Of a stretch of 64,000 bases of DNA, positions 1-51,285 are shown one piece after another; position 1 is the first letter of the stretch; every line of letters starts with the position of its first letter. The stretch comes from Desulfoglaeba alkanexedens ALDC (GTDB lineage: Bacteria; Desulfobacterota; Syntrophobacteria; Syntrophobacterales; DSM-9756), in contig NZ_CP040098.1 of NCBI RefSeq assembly GCF_005377625.1, positions 124,001 to 188,000 of the forward strand. The letters run 5' to 3'. The notes beneath the pieces were generated by a model. The model had not been told where the DNA came from and did not search any database. It saw only the letters and a program-made list of their open reading frames with translations. Position numbers and translations under genes: made by a program.

Positions 1-1
1 T

Positions 2-826
2 TCCGACCTCAAAAAATATCTTGAAAAGAACGACGTGGACTTTGTCTACATCGCCCTGCCCATGCGGGCCGAAGGCAAGATTCATGATATCCTGCAAAAC
101 TGCCGCACCCTGGGGGCGCGGCTTTTCCTGGTGCCGGATCTTTACGCCTTCCGCATTTTGAACACCCGGCTGGAGCGGCTGGGGTCGATGATGCTGCTGG
201 ATTTCAACCCCGAGTCGGGCCGCAAGCGGCTCTTCGATGTGGCCTTCTCGTTGCTGGTGATCCTTTGCAGCCTGCCGTTGACCCTGCCCATCGCCTTGCT
301 GATCAAGCTGAACGACCGGGGGCCGGTCTTCTACGGCCACCGGCGCATCACGGTCTCCGGCCGCGAGTTCAAGTGCCTGAAGTTTCGCACCATGTGCGTC
401 GATGCCGACCGCAAGCTGGAAGAGATCCTGGAGAGGGATCCGGAGGCGCGGCGGGAGTGGGCGCAGACCTTCAAGCTGAAGAACGATCCCCGCGTGACCT
501 GGTTGGGGCGCTTTCTGCGCAAGACCAGCCTGGACGAGCTGCCCCAGTTTATCAATGTGCTGAAGGGGGAAATGAGCGTGGTGGGGGCCCGGCCCATCGT
601 GCACAAGGAGCTGTGCGAGTATTATCGCGAAAACGGCGGGATCTACTGCTCCATCAAGCCGGGGATCACTGGGCCGTGGCAGATCGGCAAGCGCAGCGAC
701 ACCGAGGACTACCAGGAGCGCGTCGAGCTGGACACCTGGTATGCCGTCAACCGCAATTTCTGGCTGGATCTGAAGATCATCTGCCTGACCGTGGTCAAGG
801 TGCTTCGGGGTAGCGGGGCGTACTAG
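2..826 (+). CDS. Sugar transferase, C-terminal part (copy 1), cut by window edge
   Basis: The reading frame is open from base 2, so the gene begins left of the window. It encodes the C-terminal bacterial sugar transferase domain of a polyprenyl glycosylphosphotransferase (WbaP/EpsE type), which moves a sugar-1-phosphate onto undecaprenyl phosphate at the inner membrane to start exopolysaccharide repeat synthesis. A hydrophobic segment (LFDVAFSLLVILCSLPLTLP) precedes the catalytic domain with FKCLKFRTMCVDADRK, GRFLRKTSLDELPQF and GEMSVVGARP. The same sequence recurs at 9785-10610 with few changes. Unlike that copy, no frameshift is visible in the part present here. The exact sugar substrate cannot be read from sequence. 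Confidence 0.9.
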   Translation, partial: SDLKKYLEKNDVDFVYIALPMRAEGKIHDILQNCRTLGARLFLVPDLYAFRILNTRLERLGSMMLLDFNPESGRKRLFDVAFSLLVILCSLPLTLPIALLIKLNDRGPVFYGHRRITVSGREFKCLKFRTMCVDADRKLEEILERDPEARREWAQTFKLKNDPRVTWLGRFLRKTSLDELPQFINVLKGEMSVVGARPIVHKELCEYYRENGGIYCSIKPGITGPWQIGKRSDTEDYQERVELDTWYAVNRNFWLDLKIICLTVVKVLRGSGAY

Positions 827-947
827 ACGCAATGAGCCTCCTACTGCGGGATGGATGATTAGGTTTATTTAGATCCACAGATTACACAGATTTACACAGA
901 TAATTCTTTTTCTCGCGCAGAGGCGCAGAGGCGCAAAGAAAAAAAGG
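827..947. repeat. Composite dispersed repeat (ATCCACAGATT + CTCGCGCAGAGG families)
   Basis: A short GGATGATTAGG stretch is followed by ATCCACAGATTACACAGATT and then by TTCTTTTTCTCGCGCAGAGG with repeated GCAGAGGCGC. The same two-part composite recurs near 3356, 10665, 11880 and 13832, and with a broken second half near 16205 and 16700, so these two families have travelled together. The repeat directly truncates the transposase remnant that follows. Confidence 0.8.
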
Positions 948-1048
948 CGGCGCTTTCATGTTGTTGCCCGGGCGTCAGGATGATGGAGATCACGTTACTG
1001 TTGGCGTCGACTCGCAAATGCACTTTGGTAAGGGCGTTTTGGGTAAAA
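948..1048 (-). pseudogene. IS5-like transposase remnant (internal fragment)
   Basis: Read on the minus strand, about 30 codons give NALTKVHLRVDANSNVISII followed by LTPGQQHES. This matches the style of the DDE-domain region of IS5-family transposases, where TKIHL, LTPGQ and HD/HE motifs occur. There is no start, no C-terminal half and no inverted terminus. The fragment is cut by a CTCGCGC repeat on one side and runs into the EEP gene promoter region on the other. An almost identical fragment lies at 10732-10832 and the adjoining downstream part of a transposase lies at 15886-16000. Family assignment is by motif recognition only. Confidence 0.6.
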
Positions 1049-1073
1049 ACAAACCCGGTTTTCCCCTTTCTTT

Positions 1074-1925
1074 ATGATTTACAGACGCTACCTCCTGATT
1101 GTTGCGATTGCCACCTGCCTGGCCATCGGCATGGCCTGGGCCGTGCACCGGCCCGAGGCGGGCGGCGGCGGCTTTTCCGCCATGACCTTCAACGTGGGCG
1201 ATGCCAACCCGCGGCCGTTCCCGGTGGCCCGGACCGCGGCCTGCATCCTGGACGAAGGCCGGCCGGATATTCTGTTCTTGCAGGAAGTGCCCGGCGGCCG
1301 GGCCAGGGCCGAGCTTTTGGAAGCCTTGGGGTATCCGCACGCGGCCGGGGCGCAGGCCAAGTCCGGGAAACTGGCCGGGCTGATGGTGCTATCGCTTTAT
1401 CCCATCGGAGAAACGCGGGAGATCGAGCTGCCCAGCGACGGCAGAGGCTCCGGCGCGCTGTGCGCCGTGCTCGACATCGATGGCGAAAGAGTGCTGGCTT
1501 GCTCGGTGCATCTGGACGAGGTGGATCCCAAGGTCCGCAACGCCGAGGGGCAGGTGGTCTTTTCCGCGCGCCAGGCATTGGATTCCATCTACGCCGAGCT
1601 TTTCAGCGACACCGTGCGCACCGCTGCGGTCAAGGTCCTGGGGGCGGCCGTCGCCCACGCCGGCATGCCGGTGATCCTGGCCGGCGATTTCAACACCGTG
1701 CCGGTATCGCGCACCATCCGCCACGTGAGCGCCCGATACCGGGATGTGCTCTGGCCCGGGGTGGGCTGGTTTCAAGGCACCTATCACAAGATCGCTTTTC
1801 CGCTGAACCCCCGCATCGATTACATCTTTGTCTCCCAACGGATTGCGGTGGACCAGGCCCGGGTGCTGGCCCGCAGCGCCGGGGATCATTTCCCGGTCAG
1901 GGCGGCATTGAAGAAAAGCGCATAA
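1074..1925 (+). CDS. Endonuclease/exonuclease/phosphatase family protein, membrane-anchored (copy 1)
   Basis: A 283-residue protein with an N-terminal hydrophobic anchor (about residues 6-24) followed by an EEP fold. Family motifs are in order: MTFNVGD (metal-binding Asn40), FLQEV, SVHLDEVD, ILAGDFNTVP, NPRIDYIFV and GDHFPVRA, the last carrying the Asp-His pair. EEP proteins hydrolyse phosphodiester or phosphomonoester bonds; the substrate here is unknown. Presence beside exopolysaccharide genes and the anchor suggest a periplasmic or membrane-surface role rather than DNA repair, but that is inference. A near-identical copy sits 9784 bp downstream (10858-11709), differing at scattered residues and at the C-terminal end. 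Confidence 0.85.
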   Translation: MIYRRYLLIVAIATCLAIGMAWAVHRPEAGGGGFSAMTFNVGDANPRPFPVARTAACILDEGRPDILFLQEVPGGRARAELLEALGYPHAAGAQAKSGKLAGLMVLSLYPIGETREIELPSDGRGSGALCAVLDIDGERVLACSVHLDEVDPKVRNAEGQVVFSARQALDSIYAELFSDTVRTAAVKVLGAAVAHAGMPVILAGDFNTVPVSRTIRHVSARYRDVLWPGVGWFQGTYHKIAFPLNPRIDYIFVSQRIAVDQARVLARSAGDHFPVRAALKKSA

Positions 1926-1926
1926 G

Positions 1927-2201
1927 ACGAATTCCTTGTGTTGCGCGGCGAGATGAGCCTGGTGGGCCCGCGGCCGCCGATTCCGGCCGAGGTGGCGCAA
2001 TACGAAACCTGGCAGCGCCGGCGCCTGTCGATGAAGCCGGGGCTCACGTGCATCTGGCAGACCACCCCGCGGCGCAACGAGGTTTCCTTCAAGGAATGGA
2101 TGAAGATGGACCTGGCCTACATCGACAACTGGAGCCTGAGGCTGGATTTCAAGATCCTGGCGCGCACGGCTCTGGTGGTGCTGTTGGGGTATGGGCGGTA
2201 A
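1927..2201 (+). pseudogene. Second-type sugar transferase, C-terminal fragment
   Basis: Immediately after the stop of the EEP gene an open frame gives VLRGEMSLVGPRPPIP, then the MKPGLTCIWQT and WMKMDLAYIDNWSL motifs and a terminal LGYGR. This is the C-terminal 85-90 residues of a WcaJ/EpsL-like sugar transferase distinct from the gene at 2-826 (GPRP instead of GARP). The 5' two thirds, including the membrane segments, are absent and there is no ribosome-binding site, so it is a remnant. Shorter derivatives of the same fragment occur at 11713-11861 and 16001-16169. Confidence 0.75.
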
Positions 2202-2223
2202 AAAATAAAAAATTTACAGAAGA

Positions 2224-2637
2224 TCACGAAGGAAACGAGATGAATACATGATTTGGATGAGTCCCTGAGGGAACTGACTTCGTCAGGGATGATTCGCTAC
2301 GCGAAGGATGACTGACTTCGTCAGGGATGATCCCTTCGGGATTGGATGATTAGGATGATTAGGATGGCGCCTTCGGCATTACTGACTTCGTCAGGGATGA
2401 TTAGGATGATCCCTTCGGGATTGGATGATCCCTGCGGGACGGATGATTCGCTTCGCGAAGGATGATTTGGATGATTTGGATGGCGCCTTCGGCGCGGGAT
2501 GAATGCCTTCGGCGGGATGATTTGGATGATCCCTTCGGGATGGATGATTAGGATGACTGACTTCGTCAGGGATGACTTGGATGAGTCCCTTCGGGATTGG
2601 AGGATTCGCTTTGCGAAGGATGATTAGGCTTTTAAAC
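2224..2637. repeat. GGATGATTAGG array with short TTCG-loop hairpins
   Basis: The stretch between the fragment above and the HEPN gene has no gene. It is an array of GGATGATT or GGATGATTAGGATGA words separated by tiny palindromes whose loop is usually TTCG: CCCTTCGGG, GCGCCTTCGGCGC, CGCTTCGCG, TGCCTTCGGCA and CTGACTTCGTCAG. The stems differ in sequence but stay paired. The same family is found at 11950-12035 and 12481-12690. Short open frames in it are only translations of the repeat. Confidence 0.85.
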
Positions 2638-2665
2638 AGATTGACATCCACATCGTGAGGGAAAT

Positions 2666-3061
2666 GTGGACAAACACGAAATTCTCCAATACTGGATCGA
2701 GAGTTCGGACACCGATTTCAGTGCTATGGAGCATCTATTCGAAAAAGCAGATTATGCTTGGGCATTGTTTGTCGGGCATCTTGTCCTAGAAAAGCTCATC
2801 AAAGCTTGGTACGTTCACAATGTCGGAATAAATCCGCCGTTCATCCATGATCTTGTGCGGTTGGCAGAGAAGGCCGATTTAGCGCTCAGTGAAGGTCAAA
2901 AGGATATTCTGGACACCGTTTCCACGTTCAACCTGCGTGCGTGTTATGACGATTACAAAAGGGAATTTCATCGAAAATGCACACGTGATTTTACGAAAAA
3001 ATGGATGGATGAAATTCGAGGTATGAGAACATGGCTCAGAGAGAAGCTCCCGAAGCCGTAG
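2666..3061 (+). CDS. HEPN domain protein (HEPN/MNT pair)
   Basis: A 131-residue helical protein of the HEPN family (Pfam PF05168 type), starting at GTG 2666 with GTGAGGG just upstream. It overlaps the downstream nucleotidyltransferase gene by 31 bases, the usual arrangement of HEPN/MNT toxin-antitoxin modules in which HEPN is a ribonuclease toxin and MNT silences it by adding nucleotides. The central region FNLRACYDDYKREFH aligns with the conserved stretch of the family. However, the canonical R-X4-6-H ribonuclease motif is not obvious: Arg91 and His102 are too far apart. Toxin activity is therefore uncertain. A deletion scar of a second copy of this locus is at 13743-13866. Confidence 0.85.
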   Translation: MDKHEILQYWIESSDTDFSAMEHLFEKADYAWALFVGHLVLEKLIKAWYVHNVGINPPFIHDLVRLAEKADLALSEGQKDILDTVSTFNLRACYDDYKREFHRKCTRDFTKKWMDEIRGMRTWLREKLPKP

Positions 3062-3336
3062 TGAATTATGCCACACTTTTGAAGAGGACAATCCCACACG
3101 TCAAAAAGGTCCTCCTTTTCGGATCGTACGCCAAAGGAACGTACAAAGAAGACAGCGATCTGGACGTTGCGGTGATTGTCGAGACGATTGCCGATACCTT
3201 TGAAATGCAGGTGGATTTGATGAAACTCCGACGGAAGTTTGATACGCGCATTGAACCTCATCCCATCAGGGAAGCCGACTTTCATATGGCAAACCCCATC
3301 GCGAGAGAAGTTATGGAAAGCGGAATCGAAATATGA
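3031..3336 (+). CDS. MNT-type nucleotidyltransferase (antitoxin of HEPN/MNT pair)
   Basis: A 101-residue minimal nucleotidyltransferase of the MNT/Pol-beta superfamily. The motif GSYAKGTYKEDSDLDV carries the family signature GS-X10-DXD (Gly31-Ser32, Asp43, Asp45). In characterised HEPN/MNT systems this enzyme AMPylates the HEPN toxin. It starts inside the HEPN gene and is probably translationally coupled to it. The AT-richer base use of both genes differs from the GC-rich exopolysaccharide genes around them, suggesting import. The pair is bounded by direct repeats GATTGACATCCACA at 2639-2652 and 3352-3365. Confidence 0.9.
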   Translation: MAQREAPEAVVNYATLLKRTIPHVKKVLLFGSYAKGTYKEDSDLDVAVIVETIADTFEMQVDLMKLRRKFDTRIEPHPIREADFHMANPIAREVMESGIEI

Positions 3337-3344
3337 GCTTTGAG

Positions 3345-3640
3345 GCGCTGGGATTGACATCCACAGATTACACAGATTAACACAGATAATTCTTTTTCTC
3401 GCGCGGAGGCGCAGGGACGCAGAGAAAAAAATGGGATGATTAGGATGACTTGGATGATTTGGAGGCGGCTGGGGGCGGAGATGGGCGGTGCAGGGGGATT
3501 TTCTTTTTAAATCCACTTCTTTTTCTCGTGCAGATTTTTCTCGCGCAGAGACGCAGAGGCGCAGAGAAAAGATAACGATATCATGTTTTAAAAACTTGGC
3601 GTCTCTGCGGCTTGGCGCGAGGAAATGTTTGATGTATTGG
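3345..3640. repeat. Mixed repeats: ATCCACAGATT, CTCGCGCAGAGG, GGATGATT
   Basis: There is no gene in this 330-base gap. It begins with ATCCACAGATTACACAGATT, then CTCGCGCGGAGGCGCAGG, a GGATGATTAGGATGA piece, and finally an imperfect inverted repeat from about 3535 (TTTCTCGCGCAGAGACGC) to 3630 (GCGTCTCTGCGGCTTGGCGC). Confidence 0.75.
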
Positions 3641-4873: not shown

Positions 4874-4990
4874 CTTAATTGACATCCACAGATTACACAG
4901 ATTTACACAGATGAATAGGTCAAGGAATCAAGGGGTTTGATGGAAAAGCCGATAATCCGTGGCCATCGGTGAAATCTGTGGACAGGGATC
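4874..4990 (+). repeat. ATCCACAGATT-family unit supplying the start of the GxxExxY gene
   Basis: The unit opens with ATCCACAGATTACACAGATT, passes through GATGAATAGGTC and GTTTGATGGAAAAGCC, and ends with GTGGCCATCGGTGAAATCTG. The ends are imperfect inverted repeats (ATCCACAGATT / AAATCTGTGGA). The last GTG of the unit is the start codon of the gene at 4969. Full units also occur at 5400-5520, 5529-5650 and 5651-5765. Confidence 0.8.
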
Positions 4991-5343
4991 AGCGGACATA
5001 CGCCATTATCGGGGCCGCCATGGAGGTGCATCGGGAGTTGGGTCCCGGTTTTCTGGAAGCGGTTTACCAGGCGGCCATGGAGATGGAACTGACGTTGAGG
5101 GACATCCCTTTCCGCTCTCAACCGCAAGTCGCCGTTCAATACAAAGGCCGCGATCTGGACAAGGTGTATCAGCCGGACCTGATATGCTTTGGGGAAATTA
5201 TTGTGGAGCTCAAGGCCCTGTCCAACTTATCCGGGACCGAGGAGGCTCAGATGATCAATTACTTGAAGGCCACAGGGATGAAGGTGGGTTTGTTGATCAA
5301 CTTCGGTGGGCCATCGCTGAAATACAGGCGCTTTGTGTATTAA
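4969..5343 (+). CDS. GxxExxY family protein, PD-(D/E)XK-like (copy A)
   Basis: A 124-residue protein with the defining motif GPGFLEAVY (G-X2-E-X2-Y) after YAIIGAAMEVHRELG. It then has a nuclease-like core QPDLICFGEIIVELKAL (Asp ... Glu-X-Lys) and the C-terminal YLKATGMKVGLLINFG. The family (PDDEXK_3) is widespread and of unknown function. The start codon (GTG 4969, alternative GTG 4978) and the first codons (KSVD) are part of the flanking repeat, and ATCCACAG repeats resume nine bases after the stop. A second, about 90 percent identical copy is at 17673-18038 in opposite orientation. No ribosome-binding site is obvious, so the start is uncertain. Confidence 0.85.
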   Translation: MKSVDRDQRTYAIIGAAMEVHRELGPGFLEAVYQAAMEMELTLRDIPFRSQPQVAVQYKGRDLDKVYQPDLICFGEIIVELKALSNLSGTEEAQMINYLKATGMKVGLLINFGGPSLKYRRFVY

Positions 5344-9184: not shown

Positions 9185-10610
9185 ATGCTGAAGGGGAAAA
9201 GACCATCTCTCAGAGAATCGAGCCCTTTTCTGATGCCTTTTCTGCGCCTGTTGGACGCCGGGTTGGTGGTGCTGACGCTCTATTCCATCGTGGTGCTGTA
9301 CGTCGGTCAGTGGGGTGACCAGTACACCGATCTGGCCGTCGCCGCCTTCGGCATGACCCTGCTGGTGTTCCATTACGCGGATCTCTATCGGCCATGGCGG
9401 GGGCAGAGCTTTATCAGCGAGTTTAGCGTCCTTTGCACGGCCTGGGTCATCGAGGTCGGGCTGGTGATGTTTCTGCTGTTCGTTTTCAAGCAGGGCCAGG
9501 TTTTTTCCCGCGCGGCGCTGCTCTCTTGGTTCGGGGCCGTGCCCATGGTCCTGTTCGTGGTGCATGTCTCCTTTCGCAAGATGCTCCGGTTGCTTCGGTC
9601 CAGCGGCAAGAACCTGCGCAGGGCGGTCATCGTGGGTGCCGGAGATCTCGGGTTCACCCTGGCGCGGCATATCGAAGCGGCCCCCTGGATCGGCATCCGG
9701 GTGATCGGTTTTTTTGACGACCGGAAAACCACCGCGGACCTGGCCGGCACGGCGCAGCGGGACCAAAACCATCCTGGGAACCGTTTCCGAGCTCAAAAAA
9801 TATCTTGAAAAGAACGACGTGGACTTTGTCTACATCGCCCTTCCCATGCGGGCCGAAGGCAAGATTCATGATATCCTGCAAAACTGCCGCACCCTGGGGG
9901 CGCGGCTTTTCCTGGTGCCGGATCTTTACGCCTTCCGCATTTTGAACACCCGGCTGGAGCGGCTGGGCTCGATGATGCTGCTGGATTTCAACCCCGAGTC
10001 GGGCCGCAAGCGGCTCTTCGATGTGGCCTTCTCGTTGCTGGTGATCCTTTGCAGCCTGCCGTTGACCCTGCCCATCGCCTTGCTGATCAAGCTGAACGAC
10101 GGGGGGCCGGTCTTCTACGGCCACCGGCGCATCACGGTCTCCGGCCGCGAGTTCAATTGCCTGAAGTTTCGCACCATGTGCGTCGATGCCGACCGCAAGT
10201 TGGCCGAGATCCTGGAGAGGGATCCGGCGGCGCGGCGGGAGTGGGCGCAGACCTTCAAGCTGAAGAACGATCCCCGCGTGACCTGGTTGGGGCGCTTTCT
10301 GCGCAAGACCAGCCTGGACGAGCTGCCCCAGTTCATCAACGTGCTGCGCGGCGAGATGAGCGTGGTGGGGGCCCGGCCCATCGTGCACAAGGAGCTGTGC
10401 GAGTATTATCGCGAAAACGGCGGGATCTACTGCTCCATCAAGCCGGGGATCACCGGGCCGTGGCAGATCGGCAAGCGCAGCGACACCGAGGACTACCAGG
10501 AGCGCGTCGAGCTGGACACCTGGTATGCCGTCAACCGCAACTTCTGGCTGGACCTGAAGATCATCTGCCTGACCGTGGTCAAGGTGCTTCGGGGTAGCGG
10601 GGCGTACTAG
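9185..10610 (+). pseudogene. Sugar transferase (copy 2), interrupted by a +1 frameshift
   Basis: The first frame (9185-9808) encodes a membrane N-terminus with about four hydrophobic segments and a nucleotide-binding-like VIVGAGDLGFTLARHI. The second frame (9714-10610) encodes the remainder and the catalytic domain (FNCLKFRTMCVDADRK, GEMSVVGARP). The frames meet near 9755-9768, where DDRKTTADLAG would continue into GTKTILGTVSELKKYL if one base were removed. Together they make a normal approximately 475-residue polyprenyl glycosylphosphotransferase. AAAGGAG precedes ATG 9185. The shift is either a true inactivating mutation, tolerated because copy 1 exists, or an assembly/sequencing error in a duplicated region. 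Confidence 0.85.
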
Positions 10611-10731
10611 ACGCAATGAGCCTCCTACTGCGGCATGGATGATTAGGTTTATTTAGATCCACAGATTACACAGATTTACACAGATAATTCTTTTTCTCGC
10701 GCAGAGGCGCAGAGGCGCAAAGAAAAAAAGG
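10611..10731. repeat. Composite dispersed repeat (second copy)
   Basis: Equivalent to 827-947: GGATGATTAGG, ATCCACAGATTACACAGATT and CTCGCGCAGAGGCGCAGAGG. It belongs to the 2-kb duplication. Confidence 0.8.
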
Positions 10732-10832
10732 CGGCGCTTTCATATTGTTGTCCGGGCGTCAGGATGATGGAGATCACGTTACTGTTGGCGTCGACTCGCA
10801 AATGCACTTTGGTAAGGACGTTTTGGGTAAAA
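10732..10832 (-). pseudogene. IS5-like transposase remnant (second copy)
   Basis: Counterpart of 948-1048 with a few base changes (one changes GQQ to GQQ-like DNN context). It has no start or terminal repeats and is truncated by the CTCGCGC repeat exactly as in copy 1, showing that the truncation preceded the duplication. Confidence 0.55.
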
Positions 10833-10857
10833 ACAAACCCGGTTTTTCCCTTTCTTT

Positions 10858-11709
10858 ATGATTTACAGACGCTACCTCCTGATTGTTGCGATTGCCACCT
10901 GCCTGGCCATCGGCATGGCCTGGGCCGTGCACCGGCCCGAGGCGGGCGGCGGCGGCTTTTCCGCCATGACCTTCAACGTGGGCGATGCCAACCCGCGGCC
11001 GTTCCCGGTGGCCCAAACCGCGGCCTGCATCCTGGAGGATGGCCGGCCGGATATTCTCTTCTTGCAGGAAGTGCCCGGAGGCCGGGCCAGGGCCGAGCTT
11101 TTGGAAGCCTTGGGGTATCCGCACGCGGCCGGGGCGCAGGCCAGGTCCGGGAAACTGGCCGGGCTGATGGTGCTATCGGTTTATCCCATCGGAGAAACGC
11201 GGGAGATCGAGCTGCCCAGCGACGGCAGAGGCTCCGGCGCGCTGTGCGCCGTGCTCGACATCGATGGCGAAAGAGTGCTGGCCTGCTCGGTGCATCTGGA
11301 CGAGGTGGATCCCAAGGTCCGCAACGCCGAGGGGCAGGTGGTCTTTTCCGCGCGCCAGGCATTGGATTCCATCTACGCCGAGCTTTTCACCGACACCGTG
11401 CGTACCGACGCGGTCAAGGCCCTGGGGGCGGCCGTCGCCGACGCTGGCATGCCGGTGATCCTGGCCGGCGATTTCAACACCGTGCCGGTATCGCGCACCA
11501 TCCGCCACGTGACCGCCCGATACCGGGATGTGCTCTGGCCCGGGGTGGACTGGTTTCAAGGCACTTATCACAAGATCGCTTTTCCGCTGAACCCGCGCAT
11601 CGATTACATCTTTGTATCCCCCCGGATCGCGGTGGACCAGGCCCGGGTGCCGCCCCGCAGCGCCGGGGATCATTTCCCGGTGAGGGCGGCATTGAAGAAA
11701 GGCGCATGA
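10858..11709 (+). CDS. Endonuclease/exonuclease/phosphatase family protein, membrane-anchored (copy 2)
   Basis: A 283-residue near-duplicate of the protein at 1074-1925, with the same N-terminal anchor and all EEP motifs intact (MTFNVGD, FLQEV, SVHLDEVD, LAGDFNTVP, NPRIDYIFV, GDHFPVRA). Differences are scattered (for example PPRSAGDH instead of LARSAGDH, and a C-terminal KKGA). Most third-position bases are identical, so the duplication is recent relative to the divergence of the neighbouring repeats. Both copies look functional. Confidence 0.85.
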   Translation: MIYRRYLLIVAIATCLAIGMAWAVHRPEAGGGGFSAMTFNVGDANPRPFPVAQTAACILEDGRPDILFLQEVPGGRARAELLEALGYPHAAGAQARSGKLAGLMVLSVYPIGETREIELPSDGRGSGALCAVLDIDGERVLACSVHLDEVDPKVRNAEGQVVFSARQALDSIYAELFTDTVRTDAVKALGAAVADAGMPVILAGDFNTVPVSRTIRHVTARYRDVLWPGVDWFQGTYHKIAFPLNPRIDYIFVSPRIAVDQARVPPRSAGDHFPVRAALKKGA

Positions 11710-11712
11710 CAC

Positions 11713-11861
11713 GAACTCCTTGTGCTGCGCGGCGCAACGAGGTTTCCTTCAAGGAATGGATGAAGATGGACCTGGCCTACATCGACAACTGGAGCCTGGG
11801 GCTCGATTTCAAGATCCTGGCGCGCACGGGCCTGGTGGTGGTTTTGGGGTATGGGCGGTAA
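11713..11861 (+). pseudogene. Second-type sugar transferase remnant with 124-bp internal deletion
   Basis: Counterpart of 1927-2201, but the segment between two CGCGGCG words (1944-1950 and 2068-2074 in copy 1) is missing. This removes GEMSLVGPRP and shifts the frame; only RNEVSFKEWMKMDLAYIDNW and the terminal GYGR remain readable. Deletion between short direct repeats explains it. Confidence 0.75.
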
Positions 11862-11876
11862 GGGACAACTGCGGGT

Positions 11877-12040
11877 TAGATCCACAGATTACACAGATTT
11901 ACACAGATAATTCTTTTTCTCGGGCAGAGGCGCAGAGGCGCAGTGAAAAAAATAGAATGATTTGGATGATTAGGATGGCGCCTGCGGCGCTGGATGAATG
12001 CCTGCGGCATGGATGATTTGGATGATTGGCATGGGTGAGG
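11877..12040. repeat. ATCCACAGATT + CTCGCGC composite, then GGATGATT hairpin array (left side)
   Basis: Composite repeat at 11878-11948 is followed by GGATGATTAGGATGG, GCGCCTGCGGCGC and TGCCTGCGGCA hairpins. Here the loop is TGCG instead of TTCG. The array ends eight bases before the start of the four-helix-bundle gene. Confidence 0.8.
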
Positions 12041-12047
12041 CATATTG

Positions 12048-12476
12048 ATGCAAGATGAGGTTTTGGAGAGGAATAAGAACCTGAATCGGGGGTTTCGGAA
12101 GCTGGAGGTTTGGAGAGAGGCTATTCAGCTTTATGGCTTTGAGAAGAAAGTCCTCGACAGTCTGAAAAAAATCTCGTTCAAGATAAAGGATCAGGTTTTG
12201 GATTCGGTGTTTTCTATCAGTTCCAACATTGCGGAAGGCTACTGCAGGAGGTCGATCAAGGAGTATATTCAGTTCATCAATGTGGCGTTGGGGTCTTGCG
12301 GGGAGAATTATTCGCAATTTTATGCCTTGTTGGAGTCAGGAGAGATCGGCAGGGCGGTTTTTGATGAGTTTGATGAGCGGCACCATCGGATTGAGAACAA
12401 GCTGATGAATCTGGCGAAGGCGCTCTCCAAGAAGATGAAGACGGGGCAGGATTGGGATTCGGATTACAAGGTTTGA
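12048..12476 (+). CDS. Four-helix-bundle (S23/IVP-type) protein
   Basis: A 142-residue all-helical protein with the family pattern NRGFRKLEVWREAIQLYGF, then DQVLDSVFSISSNIAEGYCR (SIxxNIAEG signature) and YIQFINVALGSCGENYSQ. The family takes its name from proteins encoded in 23S rRNA intervening sequences, but most members, like this one, are free-standing and of unknown function. ATG 12048 is preferred over TTG 12045; GGTGAGG lies upstream. The gene sits inside the GGATGATT/TTCG hairpin repeat, which resumes within 15 bases of its stop. Its AT-richer composition differs from the flanking exopolysaccharide genes. Confidence 0.88.
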   Translation: MQDEVLERNKNLNRGFRKLEVWREAIQLYGFEKKVLDSLKKISFKIKDQVLDSVFSISSNIAEGYCRRSIKEYIQFINVALGSCGENYSQFYALLESGEIGRAVFDEFDERHHRIENKLMNLAKALSKKMKTGQDWDSDYKV

Positions 12477-12480
12477 ACAA

Positions 12481-12695
12481 GTGGCTGCGGCACGGATGAT
12501 TCGCTTCGCGAAGGAATGCCTTCGGCATGGATGAGTCCCTTCAGGACGGATGATTTGGATGATTAGGATGGCGCCTTCGGCGCGGGATGATCCCTTCGGG
12601 ACGGATGATTTGGATGATTAGGATGGCGCCTTCGGCGCGGGATGATCCGTTCGGGATTGGATGATTCGCTTCGCGAAGGATGATTTGGAGGCCGC
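12481..12695. repeat. GGATGATT / TTCG hairpin array (right side of four-helix-bundle gene)
   Basis: Hairpins CGCTTCGCG, TGCCTTCGGCA, GCGCCTTCGGCGC and CCCTTCGGG alternate with GGATGATTTGGATGATTAGG. Two near-identical blocks (about 12545-12605 and 12601-12660) indicate recent tandem duplication. Confidence 0.85.
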
Positions 12696-12711
12696 TGGGG
12701 GCGGGGGCCGG

Positions 12712-12880
12712 GAAAAGATAAAATTCGAATATCCAAAACAATTTTCAAAATTCAAATAAAACAAATTAGAAACGGCAAAAGAAGATCTAAAGAGTTTTTT
12801 TGGTCATTGTTGTATTTGGTTATTCGAATTTGTTTTGAATTTCGATATTTGGATTTCGAATTTAAGTTTTTCGGCTTTAA
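12712..12880. repeat. AT-rich palindromic element
   Basis: An AT-rich block whose left arm (AAATTCGAATATCCAAAAC) is inverted at the right (ATTTGGATTTCGAATTTAAG), with TTTGTTTTGAATTTCG and its complement inside. No open frame or RNA gene is evident. It looks like a miniature inverted-repeat element and is only seen once in this window. Confidence 0.6.
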
Positions 12881-12911
12881 AGTTTTTGTTTTTCGTTAAT
12901 CTTTTACCCGC

Positions 12912-12940
12912 TTGACTTTGGTGCCTCGCAGGAATATGGT
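12912..12940 (+). promoter_or_regulatory. Possible sigma70-type promoter for the HicB gene
   Basis: TTGACT (12912-12917), 17-base spacer and TATGGT (12935-12940) lie about 35 bases before the HicB start. Seen by eye only. Confidence 0.4.
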
Positions 12941-12975
12941 TTTTAGTAATATGCTATCCGGAGGAGGATGTCAAA

Positions 12976-13197
12976 ATGAAATATACATTGCCAGTTGTTA
13001 TCGTCCGTCTGGAAAATGGTGACTATCTGGCAAGATGCGAGGACGTCAGGGCCACTGCCATCGGCGATACGCCCTCTGAGGCAGTTGCCAACCTGCGGGA
13101 GTCTATTGAACAGATTGAAAAGAAACGAGAATTAGTGTTTTCAGGCAGCCATACAGGGCCTATACGGGACTTTTCAAGGCAAAAAACAGAACTATAG
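12976..13197 (+). CDS. HicB-like antitoxin family protein (orphan)
   Basis: A 73-residue protein with the HicB N-terminal fold: KYTLPVVIVRLENGDYLARC, then GDTPSEAVANLRESIEQ. HicB proteins neutralise HicA ribonuclease toxins, but no HicA gene is adjacent here, so this is an orphan or related stand-alone protein. Strong Shine-Dalgarno GGAGGAGG precedes ATG 12976. The short tail SGSHTGPIRDF lacks the DNA-binding helix-turn-helix often found at the C-terminus of longer HicB proteins. Confidence 0.75.
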   Translation: MKYTLPVVIVRLENGDYLARCEDVRATAIGDTPSEAVANLRESIEQIEKKRELVFSGSHTGPIRDFSRQKTEL

Positions 13198-13278
13198 CCA
13201 TAATTAAAGTCTTTGACGGATATTGAAAATATTGTGATGATGCTCTATAATTAAAAAAATAGAAAAAAGGAGCACTTC

Positions 13279-13485
13279 ATGAATACGGGTCTGTTAGTTC
13301 TTTATACAGATAATGACGGCAGCCTCAAAGGGCTGCCAAAATTCCCACCAAACAAAAAGGTGGAGGTTTATTTTCGCATTACCGGCCCGATTGAAGCGCA
13401 ACGTCCTCCCCGACGCCTGCCCAATCCGGAGATAGCAGGAAAAATACTTATAAAAGGGGATGTTTTTGACACTTGCTGCCGTTGA
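13279..13485 (+). pseudogene. Antitoxin-like gene truncated by deletion
   Basis: AAGGAG precedes ATG 13279. Residues 1-61 (from MNTGLLVLYTDNDG, then KKVEVYFRI and IAGKILIKGD) resemble small antitoxins found before VapC genes, whose C-terminus normally reads IAGK-LGDI and continues for a few residues. Here the frame runs instead into the 3' end of a PIN-domain gene in the wrong frame and stops (FDTCCR). The family resemblance is by eye. Confidence 0.5.
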
Positions 13486-13615
13486 ACTTCCTGAACATCA
13501 TCGAGACCCGCAGGACAGACTTATGATCGCAACGGCATTAATCAATGATGCCAAATTGATGTCCGCCGATCAGAAGTTTCTTAAATATCAAGAAATTGTT
13601 AACAATTTGTTGTAA
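13466..13615 (+). pseudogene. PIN-domain (VapC-type) toxin, C-terminal remnant
   Basis: About 49 codons read LAAVELPEHHRDPQDRLMIA followed by TALINDAKLMSADQKF and a TAA stop. This is the C-terminal third of PIN toxins, with the HHRDPQDR-type acidic motif and SAD. The N-terminal two thirds are missing and the fragment is fused out of frame to the antitoxin gene at about 13462-13470. One deletion therefore removed the end of the antitoxin and most of the toxin. Confidence 0.75.
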
Positions 13616-13742
13616 CCCCACCAAAGCGGACAGCCCTTTGTGCTTTTTCAGAAGGGTCTTATTGGATCCGTAAAGGCCTCGTCTTGCATACCACCGCAGA
13701 CATCATCCACGTCGCACAAGACGTGCGCCTGCCGGCCCAGAA

Positions 13743-13866
13743 TCGAGAGTTAGGACACCCATTTCAGTGCTATGGAGCATCTATTCGAAAGCGGAATCCA
13801 AATATGAGCTTTGAGGCGCTGGGATTGACATCCACAGATTACACAGATTTACACAGATAATTCTTT
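13743..13866 (+). pseudogene. Deletion scar of a second HEPN/MNT locus
   Basis: The stretch TCGAGAGTTAGGACACCC through CTATTCGAAA matches the 5' part of the HEPN gene (from about 2697). It is joined directly to GCGGAATCCAAATATGAG, matching the last bases of the MNT gene and its downstream flank, including GATTGACATCCACAG and the following repeats. The join falls at GAAA, present at both ends of the missing 575 bases (2741-2744 and 3316-3319 in the intact locus). Confidence 0.85.
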
Positions 13867-13937
13867 CATCGCCCCAGAAATGCTCAATTATATGGATTTA
13901 GATCATGCGACAACTACCCTGACACAGGGGGTTGGTC

Positions 13938-14231
13938 TCATTTCCTAACTGCATCTAATTCCTTTTTAATATCCTCTGCAAGCCAATGCCTCACCAATGT
14001 CTGATAGGGCATAGCCTTCATGGTGGCGAGCTTCTTAATTGCCTGAACATGAAGTGGATCCAACTTAATTGAGATGTTCTTCAGTTTTCTTTTACGCTTC
14101 CCTGTGATGATGTCCTGACGAATGTCGTCTTGCAGGCTAAAGGTAACGGGCTCTTCCGTGATCTCATCCAGGATATTCTCCTGATCGTAGTATTCAGCCC
14201 AAGTTTTTCGAGTTGTTTGTTCGGTTTTCAT
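13938..14231 (-). CDS. brnA: BrnA-type antitoxin
   Basis: A 97-residue protein whose C-terminal half is a ribbon-helix-helix domain (KNISIKLDPLHVQAIKKLAT ... MPYQTLVRHWL), typical of CopG/BrnA antitoxins, which bind DNA and neutralise the partner. The N-terminal half is acidic and probably wraps the toxin. It starts three bases after the stop of the BrnT gene, with AGGAGCTAACC as ribosome-binding site, so the two form an operon (toxin first, as usual for BrnTA). Confidence 0.85.
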   Translation of the reverse strand: MKTEQTTRKTWAEYYDQENILDEITEEPVTFSLQDDIRQDIITGKRKRKLKNISIKLDPLHVQAIKKLATMKAMPYQTLVRHWLAEDIKKELDAVRK

Positions 14232-14233
14232 GG

Positions 14234-14506
14234 TTAGCTCCTGCGTTTCTTATAGTATTGCAATTCTGCACGGGACATGTCCCAGCCTGTAAACGCCCGG
14301 ACAATGCCCTTGGGTTTTAGCTCGAATATAATTGTTAGATACCGCCCGTCAAATGTAGGTCCAAAAACGGCATAATGCCCTTGTTTTGTCTTTCTAAAAA
14401 AGGGTTTGTTGGCGAAGACCTCTTCTGCTTCCTCCGGAGTAACGCCGTGGCCGAGTTGGAGATGCAGGGCATTGCCTTCATCCCATTCGAAATCATTAAT
14501 TCTCAA
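14234..14506 (-). CDS. brnT: BrnT family ribonuclease toxin
   Basis: A 90-residue protein with the BrnT pattern: FEWDEGNALHLQLGHGVTPE, EEAEEVFANKPFF, GRYLTIIFELK and the C-terminal AFTGWDMSRAELQYYKKR. BrnT toxins are RelE-fold ribonucleases that cut RNA and inhibit translation. The start is TTG 14506 behind AAGGAGATC, a weak start codon that may keep toxin levels low. A stretch of GTTCCTAGATATACAAAG upstream may hold the promoter. Confidence 0.9.
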   Translation of the reverse strand: MRINDFEWDEGNALHLQLGHGVTPEEAEEVFANKPFFRKTKQGHYAVFGPTFDGRYLTIIFELKPKGIVRAFTGWDMSRAELQYYKKRRS

Positions 14507-17672: not shown

Positions 17673-18038
17673 TTAATACACAAAGCGCCTGTATTGCAGC
17701 GATGGCCTACCGAAGTTGAGCAGCACACCCACCTTCAGCCCTGCGGCCCTCAGGTAATTGATCATTTGAGCCTCCTCGGTGCCGGATAAGCTGGACAGGG
17801 CCTTGATCTCCACAATAATTTCCCCAAAGCATATCAGGTCCGGCTGGTACACCTTATCCAGATCGCGGCCTTTGTATTGAACTGTGACCTGCGGTTGAGA
17901 GCGGAAAGGGATGTCCCTCAACGCCAGTTCCATCTCCATGGCCGCCTGGTAGACCGCTTCCAGAAAACCGGGACCCAACTCCCGATGTACTTCCATGGCA
18001 GCCCCGATAATGGCGTATGTCCGCTGATCTTTGTCCAC
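17673..18038 (-). CDS. GxxExxY family protein, PD-(D/E)XK-like (copy B)
   Basis: A 121-residue counterpart of 4969-5343 with the same GPGFLEAVY, QPDLICFGEIIVEIKAL and VGVLLNFG motifs; differences include YLRAAGLKVG. I place the start at GTG 18038 (VDKDQRTYAI), matching the conserved start region of copy A; an in-frame ATG at 18071 lies in repeat DNA. Its start codon overlaps the right arm and its stop lies 10 bases from the left arm of a 23-base inverted repeat, so ORF plus repeats form a compact unit of about 420 bases. Function unknown. Base substitutions relative to copy A are mostly silent or conservative. Confidence 0.85.
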   Translation of the reverse strand: MDKDQRTYAIIGAAMEVHRELGPGFLEAVYQAAMEMELALRDIPFRSQPQVTVQYKGRDLDKVYQPDLICFGEIIVEIKALSSLSGTEEAQMINYLRAAGLKVGVLLNFGRPSLQYRRFVY

Positions 18039-18200
18039 AAGTTTAGATCCACAGATTACACAGATAGCCACAGATTATTGGATTTGCTTCTTGTTCCCAA
18101 GGTGGAGCTTGGGAACGAGGGGAAAATCCCCCTCCCCTTTAAACTCAATAGCCGCCGGCTCCTTCATCTGTGTAATCTGTGTAATCTGTGGATATAAAAC
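18035..18200. repeat. Right inverted repeat of copy B, plus TTCCCAAG and ATCCACAG pieces
   Basis: 18035-18057 is the right arm (CCACAAGTTTAGATCCACAG). A TTGTTCCCAAGGTGGAGCTT element follows at 18090, and the stretch ends with TGTAATCTGTGTAATCTGTG just after the stop of the Wza-type gene. Confidence 0.8.
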
Positions 18201-25139: not shown

Positions 25140-25196
25140 ACTGATGTCTAATGTCTAATGTCTAAAATCTAAAGTCTAATGTCTAATGTCTAACGA
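25140..25196. repeat. GTCTAAT/GTCTAAA heptamer array abutting a start codon
   Basis: Seven to eight heptamers (GTCTAAT, GTCTAAA, ATCTAAA) run up to the ATG of the next gene; only GTCTAACGA separates the last units from the start, so no Shine-Dalgarno is present there. Confidence 0.85.
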
Positions 25197-28100: not shown

Positions 28101-28250
28101 CAGACTTTAGACTTTAGACCTTAGACCTTAGACCTTAGACCTTAGACCTTAGACTTGCTTCTTGTTCCCAAGCTCCAGCTTGGGAACAAGGTGGAAACTT
28201 GAAACTTGAAACTTGAAACTTGAAACTTGAAACTTGAAACTTGAAATAGG
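28101..28250. repeat. Heptamer arrays TTAGACC and CTTGAAA, with TTCCCAAGCTCCAGC
   Basis: About six TTTAGAC/CTTAGAC heptamers, one TTCCCAAGCTCCAGCTTGGG palindrome and about seven CTTGAAA heptamers (28196-28246). Two unrelated heptamers of the same period lie side by side. Confidence 0.9.
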
Positions 28251-35293: not shown

Positions 35294-35309
35294 CGTCGGC
35301 GCTCAGGGC

Positions 35310-35600
35310 GGGACCGGCCGGGTTTGAGTTTCGGTGCGTTTCGCTTCATTTTCGGTGCGTTTCGCTTCGCTTCACGCACCCTACGGGCCGGCATTTCGAT
35401 TTCGGTGCGTTTCGCTTCGCTTCACGCACCCTACAGGCTCAGGGCGGGACCGGCCGGGTTTGGGTTTCGGTGCGTCTTGCTTCATTTTCGGTGCGTTTCG
35501 CTTCGCTTCACGCACCCTACGGGCCGGTATCTCGATTTCGGTGCGTTTCGCTTCGCTTCACGCACCCTACGCCTTCACGCACCCTACGGCTGCCGGCGAT
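35310..35600. repeat. GGTGCGTTTCGCTTCGCTTC palindrome, about five copies
   Basis: Elements of the form GGTGCGTTTCGCTTCGCTTC followed by ACGCACCCTAC, whose ends GGTGCGT and ACGCACC pair. Full copies end near 35395, 35435, 35522 and 35572; larger blocks of about 130 bases (GGGCGGGACCGGCCGGGTTT) are themselves duplicated. Confidence 0.9.
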
Positions 35601-35607
35601 CAGGGCC

Positions 35608-35640
35608 AACGGTAGGGGCGGGTTTGAAACCCGCCCCTAC
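35608..35640. repeat. GTAGGGGCGGGTTTGAAACC palindrome
   Basis: A near-perfect palindrome of about 29 bases beginning GTAGGGGCGGGTTTG and ending with its complement. Further copies are at 36528-36556 and 36600-36628. Confidence 0.9.
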
Positions 35641-35893
35641 CTTCCCCTCGTTCCCAAGCTCCAGCTTGGGAACGGCATGCCCGGGAAGCTCCAGCTTCGC
35701 CTCGCTTTCCCCTCGTTCCCAAGCTCCAGCTTGGGAACGGCATGCCCGGCAAGCTCCAGCTTCGCCTCGCTTTCCCCTCGTTCCCAAGCTCCAGCTTGGG
35801 AACGGCATGCCCGGGAAGCTCCAGCTTCGCCTCGCTTTCCCCTCGTTCCCAAGCTCCAGCTTGGGAACGGCATGCCCGGCAAGCTCCAGCGTT
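35641..35893. repeat. Tandem TTCCCAAGCTCCAGCTTGGG units, 61-base period
   Basis: Four tandem units of about 61 bases, each with CCCCTCGTTCCCAAGCTCC, the palindrome TTCCCAAGCTCCAGCTTGGG and GGCATGCCCGGCAAGCTCC. An uninterrupted reading frame through them is a by-product, not a gene. Confidence 0.92.
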
Positions 35894-42849: not shown

Positions 42850-43433
42850 TTTTCCCCTCGTTCCCAAGCTCCAGCTCGCGAACGGGCTCAATCTAAGCTG
42901 GAGCTTCTGCACAACTGTGTTCCCAAGCTGGAGCTTGGGAACAAGGTGAAATATTTGATGTCGAATTCTATTTCCCCTCCCCTTGTGGGAGGGGATTAAG
43001 GGGAGGGGGGATCTTCCCCTCGTTCCCAAGCTCCAGCTCGGGAACAGGCTCAATCGAAGCTGGAGCTTCTGCACAACTGTGTTCCCAAGCTGAAGCTTGG
43101 GAACAAGGTGAAATATTTGATGTCGGATTCTATTTCCCCTCCCCTTGTGGGAGGGGATTAAGGGGAGGGGGGATCTTCCCCTCGTTCCCAAGCTCCAGCT
43201 TGGGAACGGGCTCAATCGAAGCTGGAGCTTCTGCACAACTGTGTTCCCAAGCTGGAGCTTGGGAACAAAGTGAAATATTTGATGTCGAATTCTATTTCCC
43301 CTCCCCTTGTGGGAGGGGATTAAGGGGAGGGGGGATCTTCCCCTCGTTCCCAAGCTCCAGCTTGGGAACGGGCTCAATCGAAGCTGGAGCTTCTGCACAA
43401 CTGTGTTCCCAAGCTGGAGCTTGGGAACAAGGT
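42850..43433. repeat. 162-base composite tandem repeat, about 3.5 copies
   Basis: Each unit joins CCCCTCGTTCCCAAGCTCC, GAAGCTGGAGCTTCTGCAC, AAGCTGGAGCTTGGGAAC, AATATTTGATGTCGAATTC and CCCCTCCCCTTGTGGGAGGG with GATTAAGGGGAGGGG. Equivalent points recur at 43011, 43173 and 43335, exactly 162 bases apart. Because 162 is divisible by three, a long spurious frame crosses it. There is no gene in the 723-base gap. Confidence 0.93.
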
Positions 43434-43498
43434 GGAAATCTCTTTGCGTCTTTGCGCGAGACATTTTGGTTGCGGCCATCCGCATTAGATGCCTCGAT

Positions 43499-50903: not shown

Positions 50904-51285
50904 AGGCTAGACTTTAGACCTTAGACATTAGACTTTAGACCCTAGACTTTAGACATTAGAGATTACAGTCTGAGGTCTAATGTCTGATGGGTGCGGATCT
51001 TTTAGAACGACATCCAGAGTAACCCTCTGAGGTAGATCCAGATGGCCCTGAAGCAGCAAGTGCATCAGCTCCGTTTCCCCTCGTTCCCAAGCTCCAGCTT
51101 GGGAACGGGCTCACCGAAGCTGGAGCTTCTGCACAGTTGTGTTCCCAAGCTGGAGCTTGGGAACAAGAAGCAAAAGATCTGCACCCATGTCTGAAGTCTG
51201 AAGTCTGAGGTCTAATGTCTGAGGTCTAATGTCTAATGTCTGAGGTCTGATGTCTAAAGTCTGAGGTCTAATGTCTAAAGATGAG
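50904..51285. repeat. Heptamer arrays, TTCCCAAG palindromes; overlaps argB start
   Basis: TTTAGAC-type heptamers (50906-50990), a segment GGGTGCGGATCTTTTAGAAC also seen inverted near 47620, two TTCCCAAG palindromes, and GTCTGAA/GTCTAAT/GTCTGAG heptamers (51187-51281). The heptamer ATGTCTAAAG continues into the first codons of argB. Confidence 0.88.

Follow-up and report, generated by a model that had tools for sequence, protein, structure and literature searches.

What ties a small four-helix-bundle gene to the short repeats and hairpins that enclose it? The question is raised by a locus of Desulfoglaeba alkanexedens ALDC, in a 64,000-nucleotide stretch of its genome (NZ_CP040098.1, positions 124,001 to 188,000 of the forward strand; hereafter the window). 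Here, as the initial annotation had described, an open reading frame (ORF) for a four-helix-bundle protein lies inside an array of GGATGA units and hairpins (Table 1). The gene is a member of the S23/IVP family, the 23S rRNA intervening-sequence protein family: it matched PF05635 (E = 1.5e-18, 67.4 bits against a cut-off of 33.8) and TIGR02436, "four helix bundle protein" (E = 9e-19, 67.7 bits against a cut-off of 24). At most of the free-standing IVP genes compared here, the gene stands between two tandem arrays of a 7-8-nt unit, one array being an inverted copy of the other. Such genes are probably the cargo of compact elements of about 450 bp that spread these arms.

The AlphaFold model of the window protein is a helical bundle with four long helices (mean pLDDT 93.7). 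Its best Foldseek match in the PDB was Xcc0516 (2gsc; TMt 0.89-0.94), and BT_0352 (2rld) was also found. The PDB entries of these two relatives contain five chains each, and Xcc0516 is a homopentamer (Lin 2006, as cited in PMC4990558). The Avd chains of diversity-generating retroelements (DGRs; 4dwl, 8ub-type) resemble the model in fold only (TMt 0.72-0.86, E 0.14-0.6), with a sequence identity of 4-8%. The window subfamily is rare, with relatives of 39-43% identity in four of the 344 other genomes searched (E ≤ 1e-20). The gene is not inside a 23S rRNA gene: an Rfam search of positions 9500-14500 gave no rRNA match, and the two matches obtained up to E = 1 were both far under the gathering score.

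The flanks of IVP genes were compared in sets of top-scoring loci (the best 30 per search, or the best 80 of at least 585), not in a random sample. The many-phyla set, with one genome per species, was retrieved with a six-sequence profile and covers many bacterial phyla together with one archaeon, of the Methanophagales. In the phylum of the window, IVP genes were found in 154 of 296 genomes, and the 30 top-scoring loci were used. Thirty ParE genes served as a control for the flank scores. Loci with short flanks were left out (L056 of the phylum IVP set, L093 of the PF13366 set introduced below, and L163, L166, L178 and L193 of the 80 GTDB loci). Overall, 85 of the 105 usable IVP loci had an inverted-flank score of at least 30. 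In the many-phyla set, the median inverted score was 39.5, against 17 for mismatched pairs of flanks, and 62 of 76 loci scored at least 30, a level reached by the direct score in nine, by none of 63 distal windows and by 2.6% of the mismatched pairs; 47 of the 76 exceeded the 99th percentile of mismatched loci (37). The corresponding medians were 36 and 17 in the phylum set (23 of 29 loci at 30 or more) and 17 and 17 for the ParE genes (0 of 30). D. alkanexedens itself has eight IVP genes. The window gene scores 16; the other seven, which score 159, 156, 99, 33, 30, 22 and 18, are not in arrays of the window type (GGATGATT). Long tandem heptamer arrays flank L015, L017, L019 and L022 of this genome on both sides.

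Tandem arrays were present within 250 nt upstream, downstream and on both sides of the gene at 58, 61 and 49 of the 76 many-phyla loci (distal windows 17/139), at 25, 24 and 21 of the 29 phylum loci (distal 5/56) and at 5, 6 and 3 of the eight loci of this genome (distal 5/16), against 0, 3 and 0 of the 30 ParE loci (distal 1/55). The period was seven in 102 of 119 many-phyla arms and in 39 of 49 phylum arms, with eight the next most common, and the median copy number was about 4.4. The period-7 arms (n = 159) had a median length of 31 nt, and 47 of them measured 30-32 nt, which is four periods plus the core; in whole units, 64 arms had four, 25 had five, 45 had two or three and 25 had six or more. 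Slippage extends some arms to 20-45 copies. The repeat unit is private to each locus and common to both of its arms: in the inverted frame, the upstream and downstream units of one locus (n = 71) agreed at 5.93 of seven positions and those of mismatched loci at 3.68, and 50 loci agreed at six or more, against three mismatched ones. The units are non-random heptamers (EM likelihood -1104, against -1184 for the best of 25 letter-shuffled sets), and their most constant part is an AG core. More similar proteins have more similar units (88 loci; Mantel r = 0.159, 0 of 2000 permutations), and the arms change faster than the proteins, one pair with a normalised score of 0.98 sharing five of seven positions.

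Inverted flanks are also found at genes of the GxxExxY family (PF13366), of which this genome has three (median inverted score 36; 21 of 29 loci at 30 or more). The GxxExxY arms have periods of 8-10 and about 2.7 copies, compared to 7-8 and about 4.4 for IVP. That period and copy number differ with the protein family suggests that the protein, or machinery called by it, sets the unit. In the window, genes of this PD-(D/E)XK family lie at 4969-5343 and 17673-18071; these and the loci L074-L103 are situated between arrays (CACAGATTA/ATCTGTGTA and similar), often inverted. Short hairpins, which had been predicted to be enriched at IVP genes elsewhere, did not share this distribution. Hairpins with a stem of at least 5 and a loop of 3-4, counted per 250 nt, numbered 0.52 near the genes and 0.71 in distal flanks of the many-phyla set (143 flanks), and 0.67 and 0.79 in the phylum set (57 flanks). 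The proposed link between the family, its border repeats and the 23S rRNA intervening sequences (IVSs) is thus supported for inverted tandem 7-8-mers and fails for hairpin arrays.

Reading of the translated flanks by eye placed L162 and L148 between carA and carB, L136 between pgk and pyk, L151 and L177 between nuoC and nuoD (L160, L202 and L206 likewise, by their similar flanks), L147 between the E1 and E2 genes of a dehydrogenase, and L142 before gmk. No rRNA match was found in 20 other IVP loci. When the orientation of the neighbours was assigned by a codon-position score (47 of 80 and 17 of 30 loci scored, 33 and 13 unscored), both neighbours lay in the IVP sense 51 times and both antisense three times; one of these three, L151, is sense by reading. 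In 35 of 57 scorable cases, no more than 10 nt separated the upstream stop codon from the beginning of the upstream array; between the end of the downstream array and the next start, the distance was this short in 14 of 51. A requirement for expression from the operon, or for a step involving RNA, may underlie the sense bias. At L162, L263, L264, L268 and other loci, the IVP frame continues without a stop across the heptamer arm and into the sequence upstream, giving 150-548 aa; since seven is not a multiple of three, arm length may switch read-through or coupling. IVP genes have also been described inside cas loci, for example between cmr3 and cmr2 of Pleurocapsa (PMC3936711), and these may be operon-junction insertions of the same kind rather than CRISPR accessories.

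The nuoC-nuoD junction provided an empty site. The joined flanks of L177 (Bosea sp. OK403) were searched in 41 genomes of its genus, and the junction was uninterrupted in 16 of these (15 full matches and a partial one with a short junction), with spacers of 3-15 nt by script measure and no heptamers. In the L177 genome, the nuoC stop and the nuoD start are 455 nt apart, and a possible 8-nt duplication, AGGCGAAG, is present on both sides of the IVP element. The other 24 junctions look occupied; the 13 that were inspected (L241-L253) hold non-IVP sequence, GFA-like in 12 by reading, and a single IVP insertion is therefore claimed at this site. In the relatives of G296, the nuoC-nuoD junction is an operon junction open to several insertions.

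Evidence for dispersal came from the family of L162, the Xanthomonadaceae/Lysobacteraceae, in which 108 of 247 genomes had an IVP match, 85 of the 108 only one. Reading of 70 Xanthomonadaceae IVP loci gave 27 whose arms are rotations of GGGATTC/GGGAATC. This unit was already known in X. campestris as a dispersed heptamer, GGGAATC, forming 186 arrays, most often of four units, that were read as G-quadruplexes; the arrays, which include 70 convergent pairs, lie between aligned ORFs, near stop codons (Rehm 2015, PMC4692102). A search of the main text of that paper found no mention of S23, four-helix, xcc0516, transposase or RAYT. We counted GGGAWTC doublets (GGGAWTCGGGAWTC) in the same 247 genomes. 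At least 10 doublets were found in 68 of 108 IVP-positive and 17 of 139 IVP-negative genomes (odds ratio 12.2, uncorrected for phylogeny), and the median number of doublets elsewhere in the genome was 149 where the sampled IVP arms carry the GGGAWTC unit (27 genomes) and 19 otherwise (40 genomes; p = 2e-6). Among 150 sites listed, neighbours within 400 nt were arranged "+ then -" in 10 cases and "- then +" in none, which is the orientation of IVP arms. The nine gene-less pairs that were read have arms of 2-6 units around an interior of about 20-115 nt. Their context was judged by eye, L334 looking intragenic, and the pairs were seen in Xanthomonadaceae, for the GGGAWTC unit.

The proposed IVP element would thus consist of an upstream arm of about four to five tandem 7-8-mers, the IVP ORF, and a downstream arm that is an inverted copy of the first. 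The homopentameric protein may recognise the repeated unit: an arm of four periods and a further core offers about five cores, a number that would match the five subunits of a ring. It could then help the arms to spread, in cis with its own gene and in trans as gene-less pairs, perhaps through a hairpin intermediate of single-stranded DNA or RNA, much as RAYTs spread REPINs. A host factor might act with the protein as the mover, or the hairpin intermediate itself might be the mover. A broader version, to which we give somewhat less than an even chance, is that S23/IVP is the unrecognised partner of the short tandem repeats that lie dispersed in bacterial genomes, its pentameric ring reading about five 7-8-mers and dispersing arms in cis and trans in the manner of REPINs, with the period set by the protein family.

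REP/REPIN-RAYT would be the nearest working model for such elements. As with IVP in the Xanthomonadaceae (85 of 108 genomes), there is usually one gene per genome, with the unit in its flanks; the gene-less inverted doublets of REPINs (PMC3116915) have a likely counterpart in the Xanthomonadaceae pairs described above. IVP differs in being a four-helix bundle of a pentameric family instead of a tyrosine transposase, and its unit is a tandem heptamer instead of a single palindrome. Hmmscan found no transposase domain in the window ORF, PF05635 being the only match above the cut-off, with no Y1 tyrosine transposase. The 23S IVSs with an S23p ORF (Leptospira, Coxiella) share the PF05635 family and an ORF bounded by inverted repeats. 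The Coxiella IVS has a 28-bp terminal inverted repeat and, immediately upstream of its S23p ORF, tandem heptamers whose copy number varies between strains (PMC4990558), which supports the tie to 23S IVSs made in the initial annotation. The IVP elements described here differ from these IVSs in being free-standing and in having arms of tandem units, with no rRNA in the 20 loci or near the window gene; terminal inverted repeats are present at the 85 of 105 other IVP loci and absent from the window gene. The 23S IVSs would then be elements of this type that landed in rRNA. Of the class 3 paired sites of Geobacter metallireducens, which are dispersed, 15 of 16 have five tandem heptanucleotides, and their partner was left as an unidentified regulator (PMC2700814); this five-heptanucleotide class may help the five-fold-ring reading. 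Among the literature matches listed, in the text available, no link of S23/IVP genes to inverted heptamer arrays was found beyond the Coxiella heptamers. A single IVP query (L055) had no match in 50,697 phage records and matched 36 of 72,556 plasmids, mostly cyanobacterial.

We considered the possibility that the arms act at the RNA level only, which we regard as rather unlikely. The inverted arms would pair as a stem of about 31 bp, a substrate for RNase III, by which the operon is insulated or processed; alternatively, the IVP ring would bind its own leader in a TRAP-like autoregulation. The spread of the genes would be ordinary horizontal transfer. The sense bias (51 against 3) and the location at operon junctions are consistent with this, as are the excision of the Coxiella IVS stem by RNase III (PMC4990558) and the transcription of the majority of the repeats of Rehm 2015 (PMC4692102). 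However, the gene-less pairs and the dozens to hundreds of dispersed arrays of the same unit call for a spreading mechanism, and a double-stranded RNA stem explains neither the tandem unit nor the family-specific period (7-8 in IVP, 8-10 in GxxExxY).

The window locus itself departs from the general pattern. On both sides of the gene there are short tandem arrays in which GGATGA is followed either by TTT/TTA-like bases (a 9-nt unit) or by a 13-nt hairpin (a 19-nt unit), with a 55-nt composite period in the right arm. The right array contains seven perfect triloop hairpins (stem of at least 4) in 221 nt, compared to a mean of 0.63 and a maximum of 4 in 300 single-base shuffles, and to 1.28 per 221 nt at 14-60 kb of the window. 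The gene-adjacent perfect stems are GCGCC/GGCGC, ATGCC/GGCAT, TTCGC/GCGAA and TCCC/GGGA, with an overlapping GGGA-TGA-TCCC. Several details of the initial annotation are revised by this analysis. The loops, given there as TTCG and TGCG tetraloops, are triloops, mostly closed by a C-G pair (C-TTC-G, C-TGC-G). Both left hairpins are indeed of the TGC type and the right ones mostly TTC, as had been noted, with the exception of the imperfect gene-proximal right hairpin (12481-12493), which is TGC. The gaps, given as 8 and 15 bases, also differ: the last GGATGATT on the left stops 17 nt short of the TTG start (20 nt short of the ATG), and the first right hairpin and first right GGATGATT lie 4 and 17 nt past the stop. 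The different loops on the two sides would fit a separate homogenisation of each arm. CRISPR and attC arrays were dropped, by reading, as identities for these hairpins because the units are 9 or 19 nt long without spacers of constant length.

All four subfamily relatives, which are found in three families, have octamers upstream (GGAATGAT, TGGAATAA, TGGAGTAA); downstream, inverted copies are present in L256 and L258 and a distant one in L257, and TRF found none in L255. By eye, such GGA(A/G)TRR-type octamers are unusual at other IVP loci. In the window, GGATGATT looks like the GGAATGAT-type motif, shortened and re-spaced, and because of this resemblance we think it fairly probable that the array is an arm of the element itself, which has been expanded by units with hairpins and which, unusually, is direct on the right. 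An element of the GGAATGAT-like octamer-arm subfamily would have had its arms converted into 9-nt and 19-nt (GGATGA plus 13-nt hairpin) units that are now direct, and the hairpins look like a local elaboration of an IVP arm. It is also possible, if doubtful, that the array belongs to a repeat family of its own and that the IVP gene landed in it by chance, the octamer likeness being fortuitous. The arms are direct (direct score 109), not inverted, and the exact array pattern is nearly confined to one duplicated segment, occurring in three of 345 genomes with five of its seven matches in the duplicated segment of this genome. There are also gene-less copies nearby (2250-2632 and 3434-3463). Against a separate family stand the GGA(A/G)TRR-type octamers upstream of all four relatives, and direct-only arms exist at another IVP locus, L164 (direct 148, inverted 16).

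The gene-less copies can also be explained from the element. The segments 1-2200 and about 9785-11860 of the window carry matching genes, compared by eye. The array 2250-2632 has mixed loops (TTC, TGA, TAC, TGC, TTT). The region 3358-3480 has the same left flank as the gene-bearing array at 11883-12700, with its arrays of CACAGATTTA and of GCGCAGAG, and an almost identical right flank (GGAGGCSGCTGGGGGCGG), and these enclose only three units. Three states thus coexist in the window, namely three units, a long array without a gene, and an array with a gene. Since the arms are direct, recombination between them could remove the gene and leave solo arrays behind; the opposite order, with the array before the gene, is possible for this site. 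Over positions 1-3480 and 9785-13870, the duplication comprises a glycosyltransferase-like gene, an endonuclease/exonuclease/phosphatase-family gene and the array region. The first copy has an intact HEPN-MNT-like pair (2666-3336, by reading), of which the second copy retains fragments near 13760-13810.

Table 1. Features of the window discussed in the text.
Feature	Position	Strand	Remarks
IVP/S23 four-helix-bundle gene	12045-12476	+	TTG start, ATG at 12048, 143 codons; PF05635/TIGR02436
Left arm, GGATGATT-type units, two TGC triloop hairpins (11978-11990, 11998-12010)	11957-12027	+	
Right arm, GGATGATT units, mostly TTC triloop hairpins, direct relative to left arm	12481-12685	+	
Gene-less expanded array of window-array units in the other duplication copy, 15 triloop hairpins	2250-2632	+	
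Three-unit gene-less version, empty or collapsed form of the site	3434-3463	+	Side-by-side reading
Gene-less heptamer array GAAACTT, unit common to arms of IVP genes G000:C1:90002 and 727237	28194-28246	+	
Gene-less heptamer array ATGTCTA/GTCTAAT, unit common to right arm of IVP gene G000:C1:727237	25144-25193	+	
Gene-less heptamer array with GTCTAAT doublets (51224-51241)	51187-51276	+	

It is quite improbable that the arms are G-quadruplexes, or generic cis-elements bound by a host regulator, that have nothing to do with the IVP protein. The dispersed Xanthomonas GGGAATC and Nostoc GGGGA(C/T)T repeats have been published as G-quadruplexes (PMC4692102), and an "unidentified global regulator" was proposed for the Geobacter metallireducens paired sites, one class of which has five heptanucleotides (PMC2700814). 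However, many units have no run of three G (AGTGGTT, AGGCAAT, GTGAATA), each IVP locus has a unit of its own, and in the Xanthomonadaceae the unit, which is that of the IVP arms at 27 of 70 loci, tracks the arm. Hardly credible is hitch-hiking, in which slippage creates arrays in spacers and IVP genes simply tolerate spacers rich in repeats or prefer them: slippage clearly lengthens some arms to 20-45 copies and this genome has many other heptamer arrays (distal windows 5/16), but the two arms of a locus match in the inverted frame (5.93 against 3.68 of 7), few distal windows of other genomes contain arrays (17/139, 5/56), and the empty Bosea junctions have 3-15-nt spacers without heptamers.

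Several observations weigh against the proposed element. Seven of the 76 many-phyla loci score below 24, and the strict 99th-percentile test is passed by six of 29 phylum loci and five of the eight loci of this genome; few phylum loci pass because unrelated loci share similar units. The window gene has no inverted arms, its inverted score of 16 being the null level. Its link to the octamer subfamily consists of motif resemblance in the four relatives only, and the right array folds no better than dinucleotide shuffles (bottom-strand DNA, z = -1.07; top-strand RNA, z = -0.50). Among the Xanthomonadaceae, three of the 70 loci (L262, L325, L327) have no array, the 17 IVP-negative genomes with at least 10 doublets include two above 260, and genomes with several IVP genes blur the arm-unit comparison, in a correlation uncorrected for phylogeny. 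The ParE neighbours, with 9 ++ and 0 -- among 12 scored, the upstream neighbour being normally the antitoxin, indicate that a sense bias alone is not special to IVP. The AGGCGAAG repeat, a single case, may be a target-site duplication. Finally, hmmscan of the window protein found no nuclease or recombinase domain (PF05635 only, plus a sub-threshold MC4 match), and no movement has been observed; that the IVP protein moves the arms is inferred.

The gene-less heptamer arrays further along the window (28194-28246, 25144-25193 and 51224-51241; Table 1) have units in common with IVP arms at other places in this genome; in a shuffled-unit control, 58 units gave a mean of 0.07 arrays and a maximum of 3. 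A TAGACTT array at 50908-50960 precedes the array at 51187-51276 by about 227 nt. Longer tandem repeats at 35301-35890 and 42852-43439 (65 nt x 3.8, 136 nt x 2 and 162 nt x 3.6) are built around "AAGCTCCAGCTTGGGAA"-like palindromes. In another genome, five IVP matches of near-equal score, all with in-frame stops, lie within 21 kb (G185:C1:3065483-3086641), perhaps a decayed local amplification.

If the broader proposal is true, one mechanism would join the heptamers of the Coxiella 23S IVS, the G-quadruplex heptamers of Xanthomonas and Nostoc, the paired sites of Geobacter and the IVP genes in cas loci. The window locus would then be an odd side branch, in which the arms have turned into hairpin arrays and become direct. 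IVP arms are a possible source of the short repeats scattered through some bacterial genomes, and how short tandem repeats spread in bacteria could then be addressed experimentally. For a protein family that has been known since the 1990s and still lacks a function, its own arms would provide a testable biochemical partner.

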